Virus record (IMG/VR): IMGVR_UViG_3300030294_000051
Coordinates: 1 to 52,205 of that record
DNA: 52,205 nt
DNA from: a virus
Strand: one strand, 5' to 3'
Position 1 is the stretch's first letter. The number at the start of each line of letters is the position of its first letter. Below are positions 2,877-52,205 of this stretch, one piece after another. The notes under the pieces were generated by a model. The model was not told the DNA's origin. It searched no databases and worked only from the letters and a program-made list of their open reading frames with translations. The position numbers and the translations under genes are program-made.

Positions 2877-3141
2877 TGCTAAACTGCTTTAATTCATTTG
2901 CATTTTGCTCTACTGTCATCAGTAGATTTTCGTAATCCAAAAGGCTAAACGAATGATCCTTGAAACTAAGTAATTCTATCTCTTTACCATTTTTGAACGT
3001 TTTAATCACTTTATTTTTTAAATCAACAAATACAGTGAAAGGGTCAATTTTCTGTGTCCACGTGTGATTTGCTGTGTCGTGTTCCATACTTAGATTGAAC
3101 ACTTTTGATACTTCTACAATTGGTTCTGCTACGTTTTCCAT
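2866..3141 (-). CDS. Hypothetical protein, 91 aa
   Basis: Not recognised. The middle reads like beta strands (DPFTVFVDLKNKVIKTFKNG). Its ATG overlaps the stop codon of the LuxR-type gene (TAATG) and its end overlaps the HTH_17 gene by 11 bp, so translation is probably coupled across the three. Confidence 0.7.
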   Translation of the reverse strand: MENVAEPIVEVSKVFNLSMEHDTANHTWTQKIDPFTVFVDLKNKVIKTFKNGKEIELLSFKDHSFSLLDYENLLMTVEQNANELKQFSNES

Positions 3142-3692
3142 TACTTGAAAAGTTTGTTGTTATGTGCGTAATCTTTAAATTCAATAAGTGAATGCAATCC
3201 AAGCTTTTGAAGTGCATTTCTTCGGTGGTTCTTTACTGTGTGGATAGAAAGAAACAAGTCCTCTGCTATCGTTTCAGTTTTACAGTTTTCATAGTACTTT
3301 TTCATTACTTCCAACTCTCTTGCTGATAGCGTACTATCAAATTTCGGCTGACAAATAATTTTGAAATACTTACATTCTGCTATCAATGGACATTTTACCA
3401 TTTCGAAATTGTAATTTCCAAACTGGTCAACATCGGGTTGACGGTCATTTTCTCCAAAGCAACAGTTTATTATTCTCCGGGCTCTCAAAAAATCGTAATA
3501 CGGTTTATTGGCAGAACTTTTTGCATACTCCTTTTTTAAAGCTTCTGCTTGTTCAGGATAAAACGTTTCACTTCTTTCGAGCAATTCGGCTGCAATGTCA
3601 GTGTCTTTTAAGGTAAACTGATTAACTACAGATTCACCAACTCTTCTGTACATCCCTTCGCCAGTCATTGGATCAGTGCTAAACTCTGTCAT
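3141..3692 (-). CDS. LuxR-type HTH regulator with Cys cluster
   Basis: The C-terminal part (from about residue 119, STLSARELEVMKKYYENC, to KNHRRNALQKLG) is a LuxR/GerE-type HTH. Ahead of it are Cys77/78, Cys101 (VKCP), Cys107 and Cys114, spaced like a metal- or Fe-S-binding cluster; this arrangement is common in Bacteroidetes phage regulators. No receiver or autoinducer domain is present. LuxR-type HTH domains usually bind dyads of about 18-20 bp, so this is the leading in-window candidate for the seven 19-bp palindromes, which is inference. The gene overlaps its upstream neighbour by 4 bp. Confidence 0.8.
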   Translation of the reverse strand: MTEFSTDPMTGEGMYRRVGESVVNQFTLKDTDIAAELLERSETFYPEQAEALKKEYAKSSANKPYYDFLRARRIINCCFGENDRQPDVDQFGNYNFEMVKCPLIAECKYFKIICQPKFDSTLSARELEVMKKYYENCKTETIAEDLFLSIHTVKNHRRNALQKLGLHSLIEFKDYAHNNKLFK

Positions 3693-4105: not shown

Positions 4106-4450
4106 ATGTTTGATTTACAAAGTTTGCGAAAAGAGCATCGTATAACACAAAAAGATGCAGCGATACTGTTAGGTTGTAAACAGCCGAATATATCTGCGAT
4201 TGAAAATGACGGAAAAGACCTGACCGAAGAGCAATTAAATATTTTAATTGACAAATACGGAAAAGAGAACATAATGAGATATTACACAGAAAGTGGAATT
4301 GTATCTGATGAACACCCACATTATGGTGGTCATAAAAATGAACTTCAAATTGCTTTTGAGATAATGAAAAAACAAGCCGATAGCCTGGAACGAAAGGATC
4401 AGCAAATTGACAGACTTATTACACTCATAGAAAACTCATTAAACAAATAA
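4106..4450 (+). CDS. XRE-family phage repressor
   Basis: The N-terminus is a clear XRE HTH (LRKEHRITQKDAAILLGCKQ, then PNISAIENDGK). The C-terminal third is a likely coiled coil (KKQADSLERKDQQIDRLITL) suited to dimer formation. At 114 residues it lacks a LexA-type self-cleavage domain, so induction would need another route. It is the first gene of the rightward lysogeny operon and divergent from the leftward early operon, with AT-rich palindromes between them. This is the best candidate for the main lysogeny repressor. Confidence 0.8.
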   Translation: MFDLQSLRKEHRITQKDAAILLGCKQPNISAIENDGKDLTEEQLNILIDKYGKENIMRYYTESGIVSDEHPHYGGHKNELQIAFEIMKKQADSLERKDQQIDRLITLIENSLNK

Positions 4451-11084: not shown

Positions 11085-11095
11085 ACTGCTACTTT

Positions 11096-11500: not shown

Positions 11501-11538
11501 TAAAACTAGCAAATATGATTGTAATACGCTCACATTTT
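11501..11538 (-). promoter_or_regulatory. Operator-promoter S2 (methyltransferase operon)
   Basis: On the minus strand the dyad GTGAGCGTATTACAATCAT (one arm imperfect) is followed after 6 bp by TAGTTTTA (11501-11508). The sequence from TTTGCTAG through TTTTACATATTATT is nearly the same as at S1, showing common descent of the two promoters. Confidence 0.7.
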
Positions 11539-11603
11539 GCGAGAATGTTTCTTTGTTTTAAGTTTGATTAACTGTATTCTTCTTTTTGTTGACGTTTACT
11601 AAC

Positions 11604-13908: not shown

Positions 13909-13946
13909 CAAAAATATAAAATATGATTGTAATACGCTCACTTATT
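13909..13946 (-). promoter_or_regulatory. Operator-promoter S3 (lysis operon)
   Basis: The dyad GTGAGCGTATTACAATCAT, identical to that at S2, is followed after 6 bp by a perfect -7 element TATTTTTG (13909-13916). The holin start is 49 bp downstream. About 100 bp away on the other strand lies the promoter of the lipoprotein moron. Confidence 0.75.
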
Positions 13947-14042
13947 TCTGAAAAACATGCAATAAATCAGCAAATTGATAACATTCTAGTGTCAATTATC
14001 AAATTCTTTTAAAAAACAAACCTCAATTTATGTTATTATCTA

Positions 14043-25707: not shown

Positions 25708-25838
25708 ATGCTTTTTTCTACTCTTATCTACTCTTCTTTATTCTACTCTACTCTACTCTGTCGAAAAGTTCCGGAGTAAATAGATAATATTCGGGAAGAA
25801 TGTGTAATTCTTCCCGAATATTCAGTTATTCTTCCCGA
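25708..25838. repeat. Composite repeat, copy B, with perfect 16-bp hairpin
   Basis: A CTACTCT-rich tract (about 25708-25756) is followed by a 22-bp segment (25757-25778) matching copy C at 19 positions, then a perfect inverted repeat with 16-bp arms and a 5-bp loop (25786-25801 with 25807-25822), and a third TTCCCGAA. The hairpin may terminate tail tube transcription, though a T-run is missing. No gene fits the gap 25679-25841. Confidence 0.65.
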
Positions 25839-25841
25839 ATT

Positions 25842-26342
25842 TTATGCTGCTTTTTTCTTGAACTTTGTGTAAAGTTCTCCATCAGCACAAGTCAAAACGA
25901 TAAAAGTCAAATCGGCAAATTCACCTTCTTCTTCTGATCTACCAGTAACGTAAGACACGCTCGCTTTGCGAACTTTTACACCGGTTGCTCCAAGATTTTT
26001 TGGAGTTACGACAACAGAATAAGGATCATTGATAACGTGTGATTTTACAATCAATTCGTCTTTTGCCACATTCAACGTAGAGTCAAGCAATGTGCTCAAC
26101 ATCTCGAAATCAGGCTCAATAATTCTTGTTTTGATTGTAATTTCTCCGTCAGAACCTTGAACAGCAACAAGCTTTCCACCTGTTGCAGTTGCTTTCAATT
26201 GCGCTCCATCAGTAGAAGCCATATTGGTCGTTTTGTCTTTGATTACACCAACATCTGTAAGTGTAACTGCAATAGCATCAGCAGCACCGGTTTTCCCGAT
26301 CTTGATATCTGCTTCGCTCCATGACATAATTATTTCAGACAT
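25842..26342 (-). CDS. Major tail tube protein
   Basis: A 166-residue beta-rich protein (strands such as GEITIKTRIIEPDFEML and KVRKASVSYVTG) with the size and position of the siphophage tail tube, between the tail terminator and chaperone genes. It would polymerise into the tube around the tape measure. Starts at ATG 26342; an internal Met at position 6 is an alternative. Confidence 0.8.
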   Translation of the reverse strand: MSEIIMSWSEADIKIGKTGAADAIAVTLTDVGVIKDKTTNMASTDGAQLKATATGGKLVAVQGSDGEITIKTRIIEPDFEMLSTLLDSTLNVAKDELIVKSHVINDPYSVVVTPKNLGATGVKVRKASVSYVTGRSEEEGEFADLTFIVLTCADGELYTKFKKKAA

Positions 26343-27819: not shown

Positions 27820-28920
27820 TTATAATCCTCCGTTCCAAGCTACGTTGGTAGTGTTGATGAACACTAACGAAGCACGGTTGATCAATGCAGGTTGTACATA
27901 GGCTTCTGCCATTGTAACCTCCAACATAGGGTTAACTTGCGAGTAAACAGTTGTTTTTGCAAAAGCTCCCTGAGCTTGCAAAGCAGCAGTTTCTTCGATA
28001 ACTGGAACAGGCTTGTAATAAGTCCAACCCAATTGTGGAACAGGCGAAAGAGTAACTACATTTTCATTCCAAGGTTTGATTGTAGTTTGTTTTCCCGCTT
28101 TGTCTTCGATAGTTGCATAACTATCCAAAACAAGGAACTGAGGAAACCCTTTTGAGCGCATGTAAGCATTTACGTTATCAACAGAAAGAACTTCTGTTGA
28201 AGTCAAACCACTTACGTTCATCAAGATAGAAGCCACTTTTTTAGCAGTAGCAGTTTGAGCCAAAAGTTGCTCGAATTTGGAAGTTTCCAAAATGGCAAAC
28301 ATTGGTTTTTTCAAACCTTTTTTAGTGATTTCTTTCTGCATTTTCACAACATCGCCAATTCCATCAGCAGTAATATCACTCCAAGCTTTTGTAACTCCTA
28401 CGAAGTTTTCAGCAGCAATATTGAAGTTGATTTCATCGGTAGTTGCCATGTCACCCTCAATGGATGCAGGGAAAGTTTGCTTTCCGGCTGAGCCGATACG
28501 CAAAGCATCAATTTCAACTTTGTAGTCGATACCGTCAGAACAAGCCTTGATGTCATCATACACCATATCAACCAAGTACCTTGCAGTAGCTTTGTCTTGT
28601 GTATTTGCAGCAGAGATTGTTTTAAGGTCGCGATATTCGTTGATTTGAACTTCGTCTTTCTCTTTCGACATAGAGATTTTACCAAGCTTTCCGCTCCAAG
28701 AACCAACAGTCTTTCGTGTTTTCAAAGGAGCTTTCACATTGAATGCAACACGGTCGGCAGAAATAGGAATTCCTTCATTGCCCTCAATTCCTTTCAGGTC
28801 AAATTTAGGAGTGTACTTCAACGGGAACAAGATGGACCAAACAAGTCCAGTACCCGGTTTATACGAGTTCACCTCGGCATTCATGCCGGGTTGATCTAGC
28901 TCAAATAATGGTTTTTCCAT
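27820..28920 (-). CDS. Major capsid protein
   Basis: A 366-residue protein resembling lambda gpE-type capsid proteins in length and in its extended N-terminal part (KTRKTVGSWSGKLGKISMSK) with a later FLVLDSYATIEDK segment. It follows the scaffold-like and decoration-like genes, the order seen in lambda (protease/scaffold, D, E). It forms the HK97-fold shell. Confidence 0.87.
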   Translation of the reverse strand: MEKPLFELDQPGMNAEVNSYKPGTGLVWSILFPLKYTPKFDLKGIEGNEGIPISADRVAFNVKAPLKTRKTVGSWSGKLGKISMSKEKDEVQINEYRDLKTISAANTQDKATARYLVDMVYDDIKACSDGIDYKVEIDALRIGSAGKQTFPASIEGDMATTDEINFNIAAENFVGVTKAWSDITADGIGDVVKMQKEITKKGLKKPMFAILETSKFEQLLAQTATAKKVASILMNVSGLTSTEVLSVDNVNAYMRSKGFPQFLVLDSYATIEDKAGKQTTIKPWNENVVTLSPVPQLGWTYYKPVPVIEETAALQAQGAFAKTTVYSQVNPMLEVTMAEAYVQPALINRASLVFINTTNVAWNGGL

Positions 28921-30239: not shown

Positions 30240-30278
30240 CAAAAATACAAAAAGTGAGCGTAACACGCTCACTTTTTG
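30240..30278 (-). promoter_or_regulatory. Operator-promoter S4 (capsid-tail operon)
   Basis: A perfect inverted repeat with 14-bp arms (30248-30261 with 30265-30278) contains GTGAGCGTGTTACGCTCAC; six bases further lies the exact -7 element TATTTTTG (30240-30247). It drives the scaffold-to-tail operon. Confidence 0.8.
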
Positions 30279-32031: not shown

Positions 32032-32038
32032 ACTGCTA

Positions 32039-32242
32039 CTATTTAAAATTTGTTGTTGTGCTAAGTGCATATTCAGAAGTAAAGAACTCATTTGACTTTA
32101 CATGCTTGATTTCTATCTCTTTTATTGGCTTACTGGTGTCAATTTTACTATTCACTCTATTGTATTTTAAATCGTGTTCAATAACAATTTCAGCTTCCTG
32201 ATTTAATTCTTGCAGTATTTGAACTAATTCATTTACTTTCAT
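32039..32242 (-). CDS. Hypothetical protein, 67 aa
   Basis: Start at the ATG at 32242, 4 bp after the previous stop; a longer frame to 32278 would overlap that gene. N-terminal helix (MKVNELVQILQELNQEAEI) followed by beta strands. Not recognised. Confidence 0.65.
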   Translation of the reverse strand: MKVNELVQILQELNQEAEIVIEHDLKYNRVNSKIDTSKPIKEIEIKHVKSNEFFTSEYALSTTTNFK

Positions 32243-32522: not shown

Positions 32523-32535
32523 TTTCTGCTACTGT

Positions 32536-32787
32536 TTAAAGATTATACTTTGATTTGATAAGTTGTAAGGCTTGTGTCTTGATAGCGTCTGTATCAATCT
32601 GTAATGACTTGTAGAACGACTCTTTCCCGGTCATTGATTCATGTGCTATTTGAAGTGTTCTACGTTCGTCTGCTGAAAAACCAATTCTGAACGTTTTGAA
32701 AATTCCGAAAGCTGCTACTATGTTGCCAAGGTTGAATAATTCAACTGCCTTGTCGGTCTTTGTTGGGGGTAATGTTGCTACTGACAT
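32536..32787 (-). CDS. Hypothetical protein, 83 aa
   Basis: Not recognised. Short helical protein and first gene of the S5 operon, with a Lys-rich end (LQLIKSKYNL). Confidence 0.65.
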   Translation of the reverse strand: MSVATLPPTKTDKAVELFNLGNIVAAFGIFKTFRIGFSADERRTLQIAHESMTGKESFYKSLQIDTDAIKTQALQLIKSKYNL

Positions 32788-32821: not shown

Positions 32822-32871
32822 GTAAAGCTAACAATAATAATTGAAATGTGTGTGCAATACGCTCATAAATT
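32822..32871 (-). promoter_or_regulatory. Operator-promoter S5 with 10-bp displaced palindrome
   Basis: The dyad ATGAGCGTATTGCACACAC (weaker arms than elsewhere) lies 17 bp, not 6-7 bp, upstream of the -7 element TAGCTTTA (32822-32829). The difference is one helical turn, so the protein would bind on the same face of the DNA. Confidence 0.6.
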
Positions 32872-32936
32872 GAAGTGAATTAATGTTGTTTAACGTGATA
32901 ACTTACTGATAGCCATGTTCGTAACATATATAAACA

Positions 32937-36878: not shown

Positions 36879-38429
36879 TTATAGCATATCGTTAATAATA
36901 TCTTCGTCTGATAATATAGTTCCATTACCACTAGGGTAAAATGTATTTGCAAGTGAATCGAACTTATCGGTTGAGCGTTTCAATCGTTTCACAATGTCTT
37001 CTTTCGGTTCGATAAGGATAGAGCCATTAGATTGAAACTTCCACCTTATCTCTGTTGCTTCTTCGGTGAATTCATCATCGGGTGGAAGACAAGGGTTATT
37101 CTTATTCTTCGGGTCCAACCAGTCACGCACACACCAAAATAAAAATGCCCGCATGTTTGCGAACGTGTAAACGTTGTTTATATCACTCAGTCCACTAGCT
37201 CCTTCGGAGTACTTGCAGGATATAGCATTCCAAAAGTTCTGCTCCAAAAGCCTTGAATAAACCCCCGCACCCTCTCCAATCGTGTCAATGAATGCAAACG
37301 TACCTTTACGGTTAATGTAGTTCTTTACAAGTCCCGCAATGTGCATGTGGTCTGCCTTACCTGCCGACTGGTGTGTTATGAACTTTTCAACCCAATTGTC
37401 ACGCCTTGGACACAGTACGCTTTTATCTCTACCCATACCGGCAACGTCAACACCTAACCGGACAGGAACATCAACAGTAGAATTTGTTTCCTGATAAATC
37501 AACCAACGTTGGTTTGCTAGTTCAATCCATTCGTAAGGAATAAGAACATCTTCACCAACTTTCGGGAACATTCCGAGTACTTTTACTCGAAACAAGTCAT
37601 TTGGCCTATAGAAGTGTTTAAGGTTGGTTTCGTCATTCCAAATAAAATCTCCATCTCCCTCATTGAATTCATTCTCAACAATTGGAGTGCACCAACTCTT
37701 TATCTTGTCATTCACCCACTCAAAGTCAACCTGACCCGGTATCGTTACTTTTCGATTGACTACATTTTCAGCGTGTAGTGAATTTAATCTAAACTTATTG
37801 AAACGGTCTGATTTCATTGCTTTTGCAGCGTAACCAGTCGTAACATTAGGGTTGAATACTAGCAACAACCTTGAATTTCCCTGCAAGTTACCCTCGATGG
37901 CATTAAAGATTAATTCAGACATCCCAGAAGCTTCCGTTGCAACAAACATGGTATTTACAGCGTGAAACCCTGACCATGCTTCCGTATTGTTATCGTCAGC
38001 CTTGAAACCTGTTAGAAACCATTCTTCGTAACTTGTTCGAATATCTCCAGACACGATCCTGCCGGGCAAACATTTAGCGTTACGCATCAACCTACGAATT
38101 TCAGGAACCATAATGTTAGTTACTTGTCTTCCTGTAGGTGCTGTCATTGCTACCTTTGTGTTCTCAACCAGTTCGCCTTTAGAATTAAACTTAGGAGTTA
38201 GATACAAGAAACACAAAGAAGCGCAAGCAGCTACGAAGTCTTTACCTCTCGCTGTTCCGCTTGCAACCGCAGTCATCTTGTTGTGCTGAACAGACCTGAT
38301 AATATCCTGTTGCTCTTTGTCCAGTCGAGCCTTTAGGACCTCCCGAACAAATTTATTCCAATCAGCTTGCCATGACTTGAAAACTGCAATTTGTTTTTCT
38401 TTGTCATTTGCTTGCTTCTTCTTCATCAT
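36879..38429 (-). CDS. terL: Terminase large subunit
   Basis: A 516-residue packaging ATPase/nuclease. A Walker A-like motif lies at about 57-65 (SGTARGKDF), followed by KVAMTAPTGRQV and a Walker B region (TMFVATEASGMSELIFNAIE). The nuclease part starts near RLGVDVAGMGRDKS, with a further acid in AFIDTIGEGAGVY. Start at 38429 or 38426 (two ATG in tandem); overlaps TerS by 26 bp. Confidence 0.92.
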   Translation of the reverse strand: MMKKKQANDKEKQIAVFKSWQADWNKFVREVLKARLDKEQQDIIRSVQHNKMTAVASGTARGKDFVAACASLCFLYLTPKFNSKGELVENTKVAMTAPTGRQVTNIMVPEIRRLMRNAKCLPGRIVSGDIRTSYEEWFLTGFKADDNNTEAWSGFHAVNTMFVATEASGMSELIFNAIEGNLQGNSRLLLVFNPNVTTGYAAKAMKSDRFNKFRLNSLHAENVVNRKVTIPGQVDFEWVNDKIKSWCTPIVENEFNEGDGDFIWNDETNLKHFYRPNDLFRVKVLGMFPKVGEDVLIPYEWIELANQRWLIYQETNSTVDVPVRLGVDVAGMGRDKSVLCPRRDNWVEKFITHQSAGKADHMHIAGLVKNYINRKGTFAFIDTIGEGAGVYSRLLEQNFWNAISCKYSEGASGLSDINNVYTFANMRAFLFWCVRDWLDPKNKNNPCLPPDDEFTEEATEIRWKFQSNGSILIEPKEDIVKRLKRSTDKFDSLANTFYPSGNGTILSDEDIINDML

Positions 38430-42266: not shown

Positions 42267-42292
42267 TCTGCTACTGTTTTGTTTCAACAACT

Positions 42293-42367
42293 AAGGCTTT
42301 GAAAGAAATGGTGCAATGTGTGGAGTGCTTTCTTTCAAAAATTCACACGCTTGTGAGCTTTTGCCTT
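42293..42367 (-). ncRNA. Predicted three-way-junction 5' leader of the packaging operon
   Basis: In the leader between S6 and the DUF488 gene, P1 is AAGGC/GCCTT (42293-42297 with 42363-42367), P2 is TCACA/TGTGA with a 4-base loop (42343-42356), and P3 is an 11-bp perfect stem TTTGAAAGAAA/TTTCTTTCAAA (42298-42308 with 42329-42339). The nested order allows all three at once. It may sense a ligand or protein, or only protect the message. Confidence 0.5.
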
Positions 42368-42385
42368 AATTATTGAATTGTGATG

Positions 42386-42426
42386 TAAAAGTAGCAAAAA
42401 GTGAGTGTATAACAATCACTTTTTGC
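42386..42426 (-). promoter_or_regulatory. Operator-promoter S6 (packaging operon)
   Basis: The dyad GTGATTGTTATACACTCAC within longer arms (GCAAAAAGTGA and TCACTTTTTGC) is followed after 7 bp by TACTTTTA (42386-42393). A TTG inside the dyad lies exactly 19 bp upstream of this element, so a regulator bound here would cover the -33 element. Confidence 0.75.
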
Positions 42427-46222: not shown

Positions 46223-46226
46223 ACTG

Positions 46227-46880
46227 CTACTTTTTAATTCGTTTGATTCTGATTTTTTTTATTGACATTATTTTTTTTCGTTTCCGAATAATTCTTTCTT
46301 TCAGTAACTTTTGAGCCATATCGTTTTGTACGCTCCATTCTATCTCTTGACGTTTACTATCTCGCTGTGCAGCGTTTAAAGCATCCATTCTATCCATCAT
46401 AAATTGGCAGAATGCGGAAGAAATTTTCAATGGATCAACACAGCCATAGAACTGTCCAAAATAGCCTGATTTGAATTTCAAAATGAAAAAAGCTATTTCA
46501 GCAATGTTCAATTGTGGATAGGTGTAAAAGATTATTTTCGAAACTTCGCTAAGTTGTTCTAGTGACATTTTTTCCTTTACTCCACAGTATTCATTGAGGT
46601 TTTCAAGTTGAATCTTGATCCATACGACAATGGCCTTTTCTCCGTAAATCTGTGCCGACATTTCCAAGGTTGGTAAATCGTATGACTTGCATTCTACAAA
46701 TCCGGCTCTAGCTCTAAGCAATCCATCTTGTACAGACGTTGGGTTGAATCGCTCCAGGTACTGAGTAATTGTACCTAACTGCTCTTTGAACTTTTCAATT
46801 TGTGGCGATAACTTCGGCAACTTCTGCAAGCAATTGACTTTGCCTGTCACTTGTGCTATTTCTTTTCTGTTCAGTTCCAT
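46227..46880 (-). CDS. DUF6633-like replication-associated protein
   Basis: The 217-residue protein resembles DUF6633 proteins, with FFILKFKSGYFGQFYGCVDP and a following helix with FCQFMMDRMDALNA. In Bacteroidetes phages these follow the DUF4373 gene and may act as helicase loader or primosome partner. The C-terminus is very basic (RIIRKRKKIMSIKKIRIKRI). It overlaps the DUF4373 gene by 86 bp, which is long; a downstream start is possible. Confidence 0.65.
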   Translation of the reverse strand: MELNRKEIAQVTGKVNCLQKLPKLSPQIEKFKEQLGTITQYLERFNPTSVQDGLLRARAGFVECKSYDLPTLEMSAQIYGEKAIVVWIKIQLENLNEYCGVKEKMSLEQLSEVSKIIFYTYPQLNIAEIAFFILKFKSGYFGQFYGCVDPLKISSAFCQFMMDRMDALNAAQRDSKRQEIEWSVQNDMAQKLLKERIIRKRKKIMSIKKIRIKRIKK

Positions 46881-47619
46881 TCTGTTTTGAATTTTGGAGT
46901 TGCTTTATAAACCAATTCACAAAGTGATCATAAGCTTCTTTCGGGGACTTGCCGGGTACTTTTTTCTGACGGAGATTTGATACAAATTTTTCTATGAAAC
47001 CATGAAACTCATTTATCTGATCAGGACTAAATCCATTCTGTGAGCAAACAATATCGCACCACTCTGTATCATCTTTCAGGAATTGTTCTAACTCGTCAAT
47101 TTCGACAAAATATTTGGGTGAGTAATTTCCTCTACTTTCCTCTTCTTTTTTCTCTTCTTCTTTACTCTTCTCTACTCTGTCTGAAAGTTCCTGAGTATTT
47201 CCACTTTCTTCCCGAACTTTTGGCGATACTTCCCGAATAATGTGTATTTCTTCGGGAATATTTACGCCTGTTCGTTTGGCTCGTCTACTCATGTCGACAA
47301 ATCTTTCTTGAATTGTTCGCGAAGTAATGATTGATAATTTGGCAAAAACAATCTTATCGAAAAGACCTACATTGCAACAGAAATTCACTATTTCAGTAAC
47401 CAATTGTTCTTCTATCGAAAAGTAATCTGCTACGTCAAACAAGAAGTTATCATCCCACTCTGTAAAGCAACCACGAACCCTGTAAACCTCACAAAGTATG
47501 TAGTCGTAGACAGCAATTCCATTACAGCTATACTTCTTCTTTAGCCGTTTTATTTTCATGTCCTGATACCGGTCTGTATCTACATTGTAGAATTTAAACC
47601 CTGACTTATTATCTGCCAT
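46795..47619 (-). CDS. DUF4373-type replication protein
   Basis: Start at ATG 47619 (MADNKSGFKFYNVDTDRYQD), giving 274 residues. The N-terminal 120 residues are a DUF4373 (Lin1244/Lin1753-like) winged-helix domain (KYSCNGIAVYDYILCEVYRV). A disordered Glu/Lys-rich linker (REVSPKVREESG through VEKSKEEEKKEEESRG) is encoded by composite repeat copy C, and a C-terminal helical domain follows. The family is thought to start phage replication, and origins are often inside such genes. Confidence 0.8.
   Translation of the reverse strand: MADNKSGFKFYNVDTDRYQDMKIKRLKKKYSCNGIAVYDYILCEVYRVRGCFTEWDDNFLFDVADYFSIEEQLVTEIVNFCCNVGLFDKIVFAKLSIITSRTIQERFVDMSRRAKRTGVNIPEEIHIIREVSPKVREESGNTQELSDRVEKSKEEEKKEEESRGNYSPKYFVEIDELEQFLKDDTEWCDIVCSQNGFSPDQINEFHGFIEKFVSNLRQKKVPGKSPKEAYDHFVNWFIKQLQNSKQNGTEQKRNSTSDRQSQLLAEVAEVIATN
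47130..47262. repeat. Composite repeat, copy C, inside the replication gene
   Basis: It shares with copy B a 22-bp segment (47176-47197, 19 matches) and a 24-bp segment (47239-47262, 21 matches), and with copy A an exact 17-bp segment (47208-47224). It also has a CT-rich tract (about 47128-47175). In frame it encodes the linker of the DUF4373 protein. Confidence 0.65.
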
Positions 47620-48061
47620 CGTTATGAGAATTAAACCGTTCGTATTGTCTCCTGAATTCCTCGAAATGCAGGTCTTCACGTGTAGGTAACTGACAACCAA
47701 ACTCACTTGCTGCATCTGCTTGTACTTTAGTGAGGAAGTTAGCCATTACATCAGTTTTCAGATTTTTTGTGCCGGAAACTACTACTTCACGCTTGTTGTT
47801 GATTACTACTTCACGCCTTAAGAATAGCTTGCAATAATAATCGTGAATGTCTTGCTTGTCTTGTCCTGTTTCGTCTTCTAAGCATGTGAACCACAACCAC
47901 ATTAAAGCATTTTGATCGTTAGAACGGTTCTTCTTGAATAGCTTATGAACTATCTCATAATCACCATTTTTAAGACTAAGGAATGACTGCTTCAATTGCT
48001 TGAATAGCTGTTCTTCTTCCTTAATTTCTCCGTTCTCTTTTTTGAAATATAGTGTCTTCAT
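47609..48061 (-). CDS. ninB: NinB-like recombination protein
   Basis: A 150-residue protein with NinB-type features: RSNDQNALMWLWFTCLED, the helix DIHDYYCKLFL and the end ADAASEFGCQLPTREDLHF. NinB proteins bind single-stranded DNA and help recombination. First gene of the replication operon; overlaps the DUF4373 gene by 11 bp. Confidence 0.78.
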   Translation of the reverse strand: MKTLYFKKENGEIKEEEQLFKQLKQSFLSLKNGDYEIVHKLFKKNRSNDQNALMWLWFTCLEDETGQDKQDIHDYYCKLFLRREVVINNKREVVVSGTKNLKTDVMANFLTKVQADAASEFGCQLPTREDLHFEEFRRQYERFNSHNDGR

Positions 48062-48078
48062 TTGTGTATAAAACGAAA

Positions 48079-48162
48079 CCCCAATTTTCCAAACTTCCGA
48101 GTAGCAGGTCGGAATAGGAAAAAAGGGGTCGTAAAATTTTTATCTAGGCTGCTACTCCTATT
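48079..48162 (-). ncRNA. Structured, possibly switching 5' leader of the replication operon
   Basis: Three sets of complementary segments compete: GAGTAGCAG with CTGCTACTC (48149-48157 with 48099-48107), AATAGG with CCTATT (48157-48162 with 48113-48118), and a hairpin TTCCGA/TCGGAA (48095-48100 with 48109-48114). In addition GGGG and CCCC pieces (48079-48082, 48125-48128) can pair across. The order does not allow all at once, as in a conformational switch or pseudoknot. Confidence 0.5.
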
Positions 48163-48173
48163 GATTGAGGATG

Positions 48174-48211
48174 TAAAGATATATAAAAGTGAGTGTAATG
48201 CAATCACATTT
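48174..48211 (-). promoter_or_regulatory. Operator-promoter S7 (replication operon)
   Basis: The dyad GTGATTGCATTACACTCAC is followed after 7 bp by TATCTTTA (48174-48181). TTG within the dyad lies 19 bp upstream of that element. A second copy of one arm (GTGATTGCATTAC, 48246-48258) lies 38 bp further in inverted orientation, so two protein units could bind. Confidence 0.75.
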
Positions 48212-48268
48212 TTGAAATAATCCCACGAAAAAGAATTAAATTTTTGTGATTGCATTACGTTTCCCTTT

Positions 48269-51582: not shown

Positions 51583-51597
51583 ACTGCTACTGTTTTA

Positions 51598-52205
51598 TTA
51601 AATAAAGAAATTTTGAAAAGTTGAACTACCATACTCGCCTTTTGTGACTTCAATCATTTCAGCGATTGTGTATTCTTTCTTTTTTGATATAAGTCGATTT
51701 GATACAAAATCTTTCGTTCCAAAGCTACAGGCACCGGTTATGATACGATAACATTCAATTGCTTTTTCAAAGCTCATTTTGCTTTCCAGTGTCAATCCTT
51801 TGTAGTCTGATTTATCACGATTTGAAATTTTGAAAATCAAATCATCTTTTGCTTCTTTGATTGTTTCACCATGTGAGAACTTTCCGTTTCCATCAGTAAC
51901 CAAATATGTTTCTTTCGTAGAACCTATTTTTTGAATTTTGTATACATTTCTTTTGTGAGAAATCACTTTGGAAAAAATACCGTCAGCCTTTACGTATTTC
52001 TTATTTCGCCACTCGAAAAATGAATTTTCATCAATGTTCCGGTTTACCTTACTTTCATCACTGATTTGCGTACCTTCAAGGTCGAGAGAACCGCCAACTG
52101 TCAAGTTATCGGGTAGGACACTGATTTGCGTACCACGTAGGTCGAGAGAACCGCCAACTGTCAAGTTATCGGGTAGGACACTGATTTGCGTACCACGTAG
52201 GTCGA
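51598..52205 (-). CDS. Leucine-rich-repeat-like protein, C-terminal part (starts at 207 across the join)
   Basis: The frame is open to the right window edge and continues from base 1 when the circle is closed. It shows the perfect 20-residue repeats, one degenerate copy (SLDLEGTQISDESK) and a 130-residue non-repetitive C-terminal domain (KYVKADGIFSKVISHKRNVY to GEYGSSTFQNFF) that includes GACSFGTKDFV. A TTG start at 52164 is only an artefact of the window edge. Function unknown. Confidence 0.8.
   Translation of the reverse strand, partial: DLRGTQISVLPDNLTVGGSLDLRGTQISVLPDNLTVGGSLDLEGTQISDESKVNRNIDENSFFEWRNKKYVKADGIFSKVISHKRNVYKIQKIGSTKETYLVTDGNGKFSHGETIKEAKDDLIFKISNRDKSDYKGLTLESKMSFEKAIECYRIITGACSFGTKDFVSNRLISKKKEYTIAEMIEVTKGEYGSSTFQNFFI
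52090..52205. repeat. Terminal direct repeat, right copy
   Basis: Identical to 1-116. See the left copy; 52089 joins to base 1 in frame. Confidence 0.9.

Follow-up and report, generated by a model that had tools for sequence, protein, structure and literature searches.

The leader of the replication operon of this phage contains one copy of an octamer that recurs directly ahead of start codons in the same genome and, in the loop region of a hairpin, the exact complement of that octamer. The question is whether the leader acts on its own operon, switches between two folds, regulates other messages of the phage, or does none of these. The window, by which we mean the whole stretch of viral DNA that was analyzed (52,205 bases, positions 1-52,205 of record IMGVR_UViG_3300030294_000051), has ends that match each other (1-116 = 52090-52205). 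Based on the genes for a portal, a terminase small subunit, a tape measure protein, RecT, NinB, NinG, a replication initiator, and an integrase-family protein, the window is a tailed phage and probably a temperate one. The relatives of its terminase-like protein (36879-38429) sit in Bacteroidales genomes and in one Capnocytophaga, and its promoters fit the Bacteroidota pattern TAnnTTTRC (consensus from PMC7366714); the host may thus be one of the Bacteroidales, perhaps Paludibacter-like.

The Leader, Its Promoter, and Its Predicted Hairpin

The first-pass annotation described this region as the leader of the replication operon, and the promoter box TATCTTTAC together with the ninB ATG at 48061 bears this out. 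The start of transcription is placed by the promoter match about 5 nt past the -7 box, near 48168. The features are collected in Table 1.

Table 1. Coordinates of the leader, its pairing partners, the upstream elements, and the start-codon boxes
Feature	Position	Strand	Basis
ninB, NinB/Orf-type recombination mediator, operon gene 1	47609-48061	minus	PHROG 72, E 8e-22
Replication initiation protein (Lin1244_N)	46795-47715	minus	
5' leader (UTR) of the ninB/replication operon	48062 to about 48168	minus	sequence, promoter match
Extended hairpin ACGACCCC..TTTTCC..TTCCGA-CCTGCTAC-TCGGAA..GGAAAA..GGGG..CGT	48073-48132	minus	folding
Apical loop of 8 nt, CCUGCUAC, complement of GUAGCAG	48101-48108	minus	sequence and folding
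GAGTAGCAG, 5' partner of the 9-bp helix; copy of the start box without a start codon	48149-48157	minus	sequence
CTGCTACTC, 3' partner of the 9-bp helix; loop and first two bases of the 3' arm	48099-48107	minus	sequence
AATAGG, 5' partner of the third (crossing) pairing	48157-48162	minus	sequence
CCTATT, 3' partner of the third pairing; 2-nt overlap with the TTCCGA arm	48113-48118	minus	sequence
-7 promoter box TATCTTTAC (Bacteroidota TAnnTTTG type)	48173-48181	minus	promoter match
Operator-like near-palindrome GTGATTGCATTACACTCAC	48185-48213		repeat family D3, one of seven copies in the genome
Inverted repeat GTAATGCAATCACA (48258-48245) / TGTGATTGCATTAC (48208-48195), 36-nt spacer	48195-48258		sequence
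AGTAGCAG box, start 207	209-216	minus	
AGTAGCAG box, start 11084 (primase-like)	11086-11093	minus	
AGTAGCAG box, start 32031	32033-32040	minus	
AGTAGCAG box, start 32522	32526-32533	minus	
AGTAGCAG box, start 42266, end of the other strongly structured leader	42268-42275	minus	
AGTAGCAG box, start 46222, gene downstream of ninB in the same direction	46224-46231	minus	
AGTAGCAG box, start 51582 (RecT)	51584-51591	minus	

The minimum free energy of the 107-nt leader was determined to be -28.9 kcal/mol (z about -3.1), and a 121-nt stretch that includes it gave -30.8 kcal/mol (z -3.4); 1/200 and 2/500 shuffled sequences folded as well as the leader. The short hairpin proposed earlier, TTCCGA (48114-48109) with TCGGAA (48100-48095), is present, but the predicted fold is larger. 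It includes the outer stems ACGACCCC/GGGG..CGT and TTTTCC/GGAAAA, is 60 nt long, and ends 11 nt ahead of the ninB ATG. A small protein gene over the leader (ORF 48058-48255) was considered and rejected, since its codon-usage score of -0.06 per codon is like that of junk ORFs, whereas the small genes of the phage score from +0.13 to +0.27.

A second leader on the minus strand (42267-42380) is more structured than that of ninB, at -31.8 kcal/mol and z -5.0. It is predicted to fold into a three-way junction, the outer stem of which begins near the predicted transcription start, and it stops just short of a AGTAGCAG-A-ATG start. Rfam searches of the window at the gathering threshold and of both leaders at E up to 10 returned chance matches only.

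The promoter is preceded by one of seven operator-like copies (255-283, 11511-11539, 13919-13947, 30250-30278, 32844-32872, 42397-42425, and 48185-48213) that share the pattern GTGAnYG..TACRCTCAC. Most copies lie directly upstream of a Bacteroidota -7 box, and the family is probably a regulon of the phage. The LuxR-type (GerE) regulator at 3141-3692 and the HTH_3 protein at 4106-4450 are candidates for binding to it. The inverted repeat that precedes the promoter of the replication operon has a counterpart in the related contig L235 (2902-2955), with the same layout and a different arm sequence. Both arms have changed together between the two phages, which points to a constraint at this place, on either the DNA or the RNA.

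Alternative Pairings in the Leader

The first-pass annotation proposed that the leader has competing folds, and the elements it named are there. GAGTAGCAG and its exact complement CTGCTACTC are found 41 nt apart on the minus strand, and in the RNA the loop CCUGCUAC has a complement in GAGUAGCAG, which lies 41 nt upstream. AATAGG and CCTATT occur, as described, in an order that excludes the first pairing. This helix crosses AGTAGCAG:CTGCTACT, so that nesting of the two is impossible; together they would make up a pseudoknot in the topological sense, with zero bases separating the two 5' strands.

The energies do not support a switch at equilibrium. For a 129-nt sequence the hairpin was calculated at -30.4 kcal/mol, compared with -21.8 kcal/mol when the 9-bp helix was forced and -19.1 kcal/mol when AATAGG/CCTATT was forced. 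In the ensemble of the same sequence, the inner stem has a probability of at least 0.94 and the 9-bp helix a probability of about 0. With 5' fragments of growing length, minimum-energy folding, which is not a kinetic simulation, gave GGAGUAG:CUAUUCC at about 60-66 nt; the 9-bp helix took its place at about 72-78 nt, and from about 84 nt onward the hairpin was the best fold. Thus, the alternative pairing proposed earlier exists, but these energies lend no support to a thermodynamic two-state switch. Because the hairpin is favored by about 9 kcal/mol, a switch at equilibrium would require something to make up this difference. Since the 9-bp pairing is the best fold only during a short stretch of transcription, it would be at most a kinetic intermediate, and a switch would be possible solely as a kinetic one.

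The complement itself is modestly surprising when taken alone. About 1% of shuffles, and 34 of the 2084 windows taken from the genome (1.6%), have a complement of at least 9 nt between the first 37 nt and the remainder. When all pairing between these two parts of the leader is summed, its energy is not unusual, with 13% of shuffles being equally strong. More surprising than the complement is the identity of the word, which is that of the start-codon box.

The Start-Codon Box and the Relatives of the Phage

The octamer AGTAGCAG occurs 11 times, with 0.8 expected, and its enrichment is clearly non-random. The loop had earlier been matched to a motif at ten start codons; the exact octamer precedes seven starts (207, 11084, 32031, 32522, 42266, 46222, and 51582), standing 1-3 nt before the start codon. 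Intragenic copies at 32712-32719 (minus) and 28246-28253 (plus) have no start after them. GCAG was found within 7 nt of the start in 10/73 predicted genes of the window, compared with 0-4% in 20 related records or loci, and the exact octamer is absent from the five related records that were searched whole. In the other viral contigs inspected, occurrences of AAAGTAGCAGTATG were discarded as chance matches that showed no enrichment before starts, and the GTAGCAGGAATG copies of L188/L192 were likewise set aside as boxes, as they appear to sit within a conserved reading frame.

No complement of the 7-mers of the box was found in two 16S loci, and among the proteins scanned there was no phage-encoded translation factor of the bS21, Hfq, or CsrA type. 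In seven genomes of likely hosts the box was not evidently common relative to a reversed-pattern control, with the exception of one genome (6 vs 1). In Flavobacterium johnsoniae, A at -3 and -6 is reported to favor initiation (PMC6847099). The sequence AGTAGCAGT-ATG resembles such Kozak-like start contexts of Bacteroidota in placing A at both positions, but the phage has a fixed octamer in one lineage and not a general preference for A. These two positions may explain why the box is tolerated at starts; they do not explain why one octamer recurs.

The leader was found only in contigs that are 100% identical to the window and represent the same phage. Searches with the loop pattern, a stem-only pattern, the promoter pattern, the NinB protein, and the DNA against 16 genomes returned identical copies or chance matches, and no divergent homologue was present in the collections searched. 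Relatives of NinB were identified in two of 393 Bacteroidales genomes and in Bacteroides phage BS-TP3, all of them without the leader; a scan of the genome collection gave none. The upstream neighbor gene (PHROG 11501) is kept in three relatives that lack the leader. The arrangement at this place differs from one relative to another. In L235 the same inverted-repeat layout is followed by a promoter, and the ATG of the next gene is 3 nt past the -7 box. In G001 the order is a terminator-like hairpin, then the promoter-like TAACTTTAC, and then about 37 nt of leader that lacks such a hairpin. In L160/G006 the next gene comes straight after a terminator-like hairpin, and there is no promoter at this place. 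Judged from these comparisons the leader and its hairpin appear to be specific to the lineage, and since the relatives manage without the leader, any function it may have is not essential to this type of operon. In prophages of isolate genomes (L161-L171), the corresponding site after the PHROG 11501 gene often looks by eye like a tRNA gene.

A Proposed Hairpin Acting in cis and the Alternatives

Our preferred reading, to which we assign a probability of roughly 0.45, is that the leader is the 5' UTR of the replication operon with a dominant hairpin that acts in cis, and that the 9-nt pairing is at most a transient anti-hairpin. The operon (ninB, the initiator, and further genes) would be transcribed from a phage-controlled promoter. 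The leader RNA would then fold into one dominant extended hairpin that begins some 36 nt into the predicted transcript and leaves the start region of ninB open. The hairpin would most likely set the stability, elongation, or translation of the operon. During transcription GAGUAGCAG:CUGCUACUC may pair briefly while the 3' half of the hairpin is still to be made, and this may delay folding of the hairpin. The sequences, the predicted fold and its stability, the match to the promoter consensus, and the order of the genes are shown; the transcription start, the action in cis, and any role of a transient helix are all inferred. Pairing in cis is favored because, of all the boxes, only that of the leader itself has complementarity extending over 9 nt (a bare duplex of -13.6 kcal/mol), compared with 7 loop bases for a box at a start codon (a bare duplex of -9.1 kcal/mol). 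It is favored as well because none of the start-codon boxes extends the pairing, whereas some extension would be expected if pairing with the loop had shaped them.

It is also conceivable, if somewhat unlikely, that the complement is fortuitous and that the leader contains a stable 5'-UTR hairpin or a relic, with no switch and no regulation. The modest rarity of a 9-nt complement, in both the shuffles and the genome, and the lack of conservation of the leader are consistent with this explanation. It must contend with the facts that the matching octamer is the very one enriched at start codons, that the leader holds sense and antisense copies of it, and that the hairpin is more stable than those of shuffled sequences. 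A transcription attenuator, in which part of the transcription would stop ahead of ninB at the hairpin and the UUUCGUUUUAU behind it, with the 9-bp helix as the antiterminator, is unlikely. The leader resembles known attenuators in that the loop and one arm of the downstream hairpin can pair instead with a segment nearer the 5' end, the two folds being mutually exclusive and in the usual order, and the U-rich tail and the transient helix of stepwise folding agree with such a role. It differs from them in the quality of the terminator: CG interrupts the U tract, internal loops break up the stem, and the hairpin is not listed in a consensus terminator scan that did list a convincing terminator at 41223-41196. 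Neither a leader peptide nor a recognized ligand- or protein-binding domain was found in it. Still less probable is cis antitermination of the put type, in which a structured leader at the head of a long operon would modify RNA polymerase. In its favor, strongly structured leaders follow two of the operator-promoters (48185 and 42397), immediately after the promoter as in the structured 5' UTRs of lambdoid phages, and the four short leaders of the operator family are unstructured. Against it, these two leaders have no sequence or fold evidently in common, and the structure of the leader after 30250 does not reach significance (z -0.9). The likeness to put RNAs is one of position, with no similarity seen, and the host RNA polymerase differs; to our knowledge, put RNAs have been described only for HK022-type phages of enterobacteria.

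The first-pass annotation further suggested, as a speculation, that the leader could regulate in trans. In such a mechanism an RNA consisting of the leader, or cut out of it, would pair through its loop with the AGUAGCAG boxes at start codons and jointly lower translation of the genes behind them, in the manner of c4 RNA. The c4 RNA is encoded ahead of its target, on one transcript with it. According to a passage in PMC12197685, which cites Citron and Schuster 1990, the c4 RNAs of P1 and P7 present complementary stretches in loops and target the region of a ribosome-binding site. The present RNA is similarly from a phage, and its loop CCUGCUAC complements the GUAGCAG ahead of the seven ATGs. 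It differs in having one complementary stretch, several possible targets, and a host of another phylum, and it does not match the c4 family (RF01695) at the gathering threshold or at E up to 10. The complementarity of the loop to the boxes stands; there are only two exact CTGCTACT sites on the minus strand, one being the loop of the leader, and both the leader and the enrichment of the box are missing from the relatives examined, a joint absence that favors a link between the two but concerns a single lineage. We nevertheless regard the action in trans as quite improbable. The free loop bases number only 7, which limits the pairing to 7 bp, and no box is flanked by a G on either side, so that the pairing is never extended, whereas the copy in the leader gains one G. 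The T before the ATG in 5/7 boxes mismatches the loop, the boxes are only partly unpaired in their predicted folds, and the terminator scan did not identify a separate terminator for a small RNA.

The broadest version of this idea, that the lineage evolved the start box AGUAGCAG on about one-tenth of its genes along with a hairpin in the replication leader that reads it, thereby forming a translational regulon, is very unlikely. If it were true, the onset of replication would lower the translation of the boxed genes, and the operon would regulate itself through its own copy of the box. Such control would be phage-wide and would operate where ribosomes do without Shine-Dalgarno pairing, as in this phylum. 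Bacteroidota ribosomes largely ignore Shine-Dalgarno sequences, and we know of few descriptions of regulatory RNAs in the phages of this phylum.

The cis-acting hairpin that we favor is of an ordinary kind; a start-codon box specific to one lineage is unusual for Bacteroidota. If an RNA or a protein reads the box, a phage would here be marking its own messages in a new way, and the pair formed by box and loop makes such reading directly testable.

Two kinds of repeats were also noted in the window. Tandem repeats of 60 bp at the contig ends (1-127 and 52059-52205) appear inside a gene that spans the ends, and contigs L240 and L241 have one or two extra units, so that the repeat number is either uncertain or variable. 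Two sets of 21-bp repeats with TTCCCGAA cores, at 25787-25843 and 47188-47262, lie near pyrimidine-rich stretches, one within the replication initiator gene and the other intergenic. They look like the iterons of replication origins, and there are possibly two origins.
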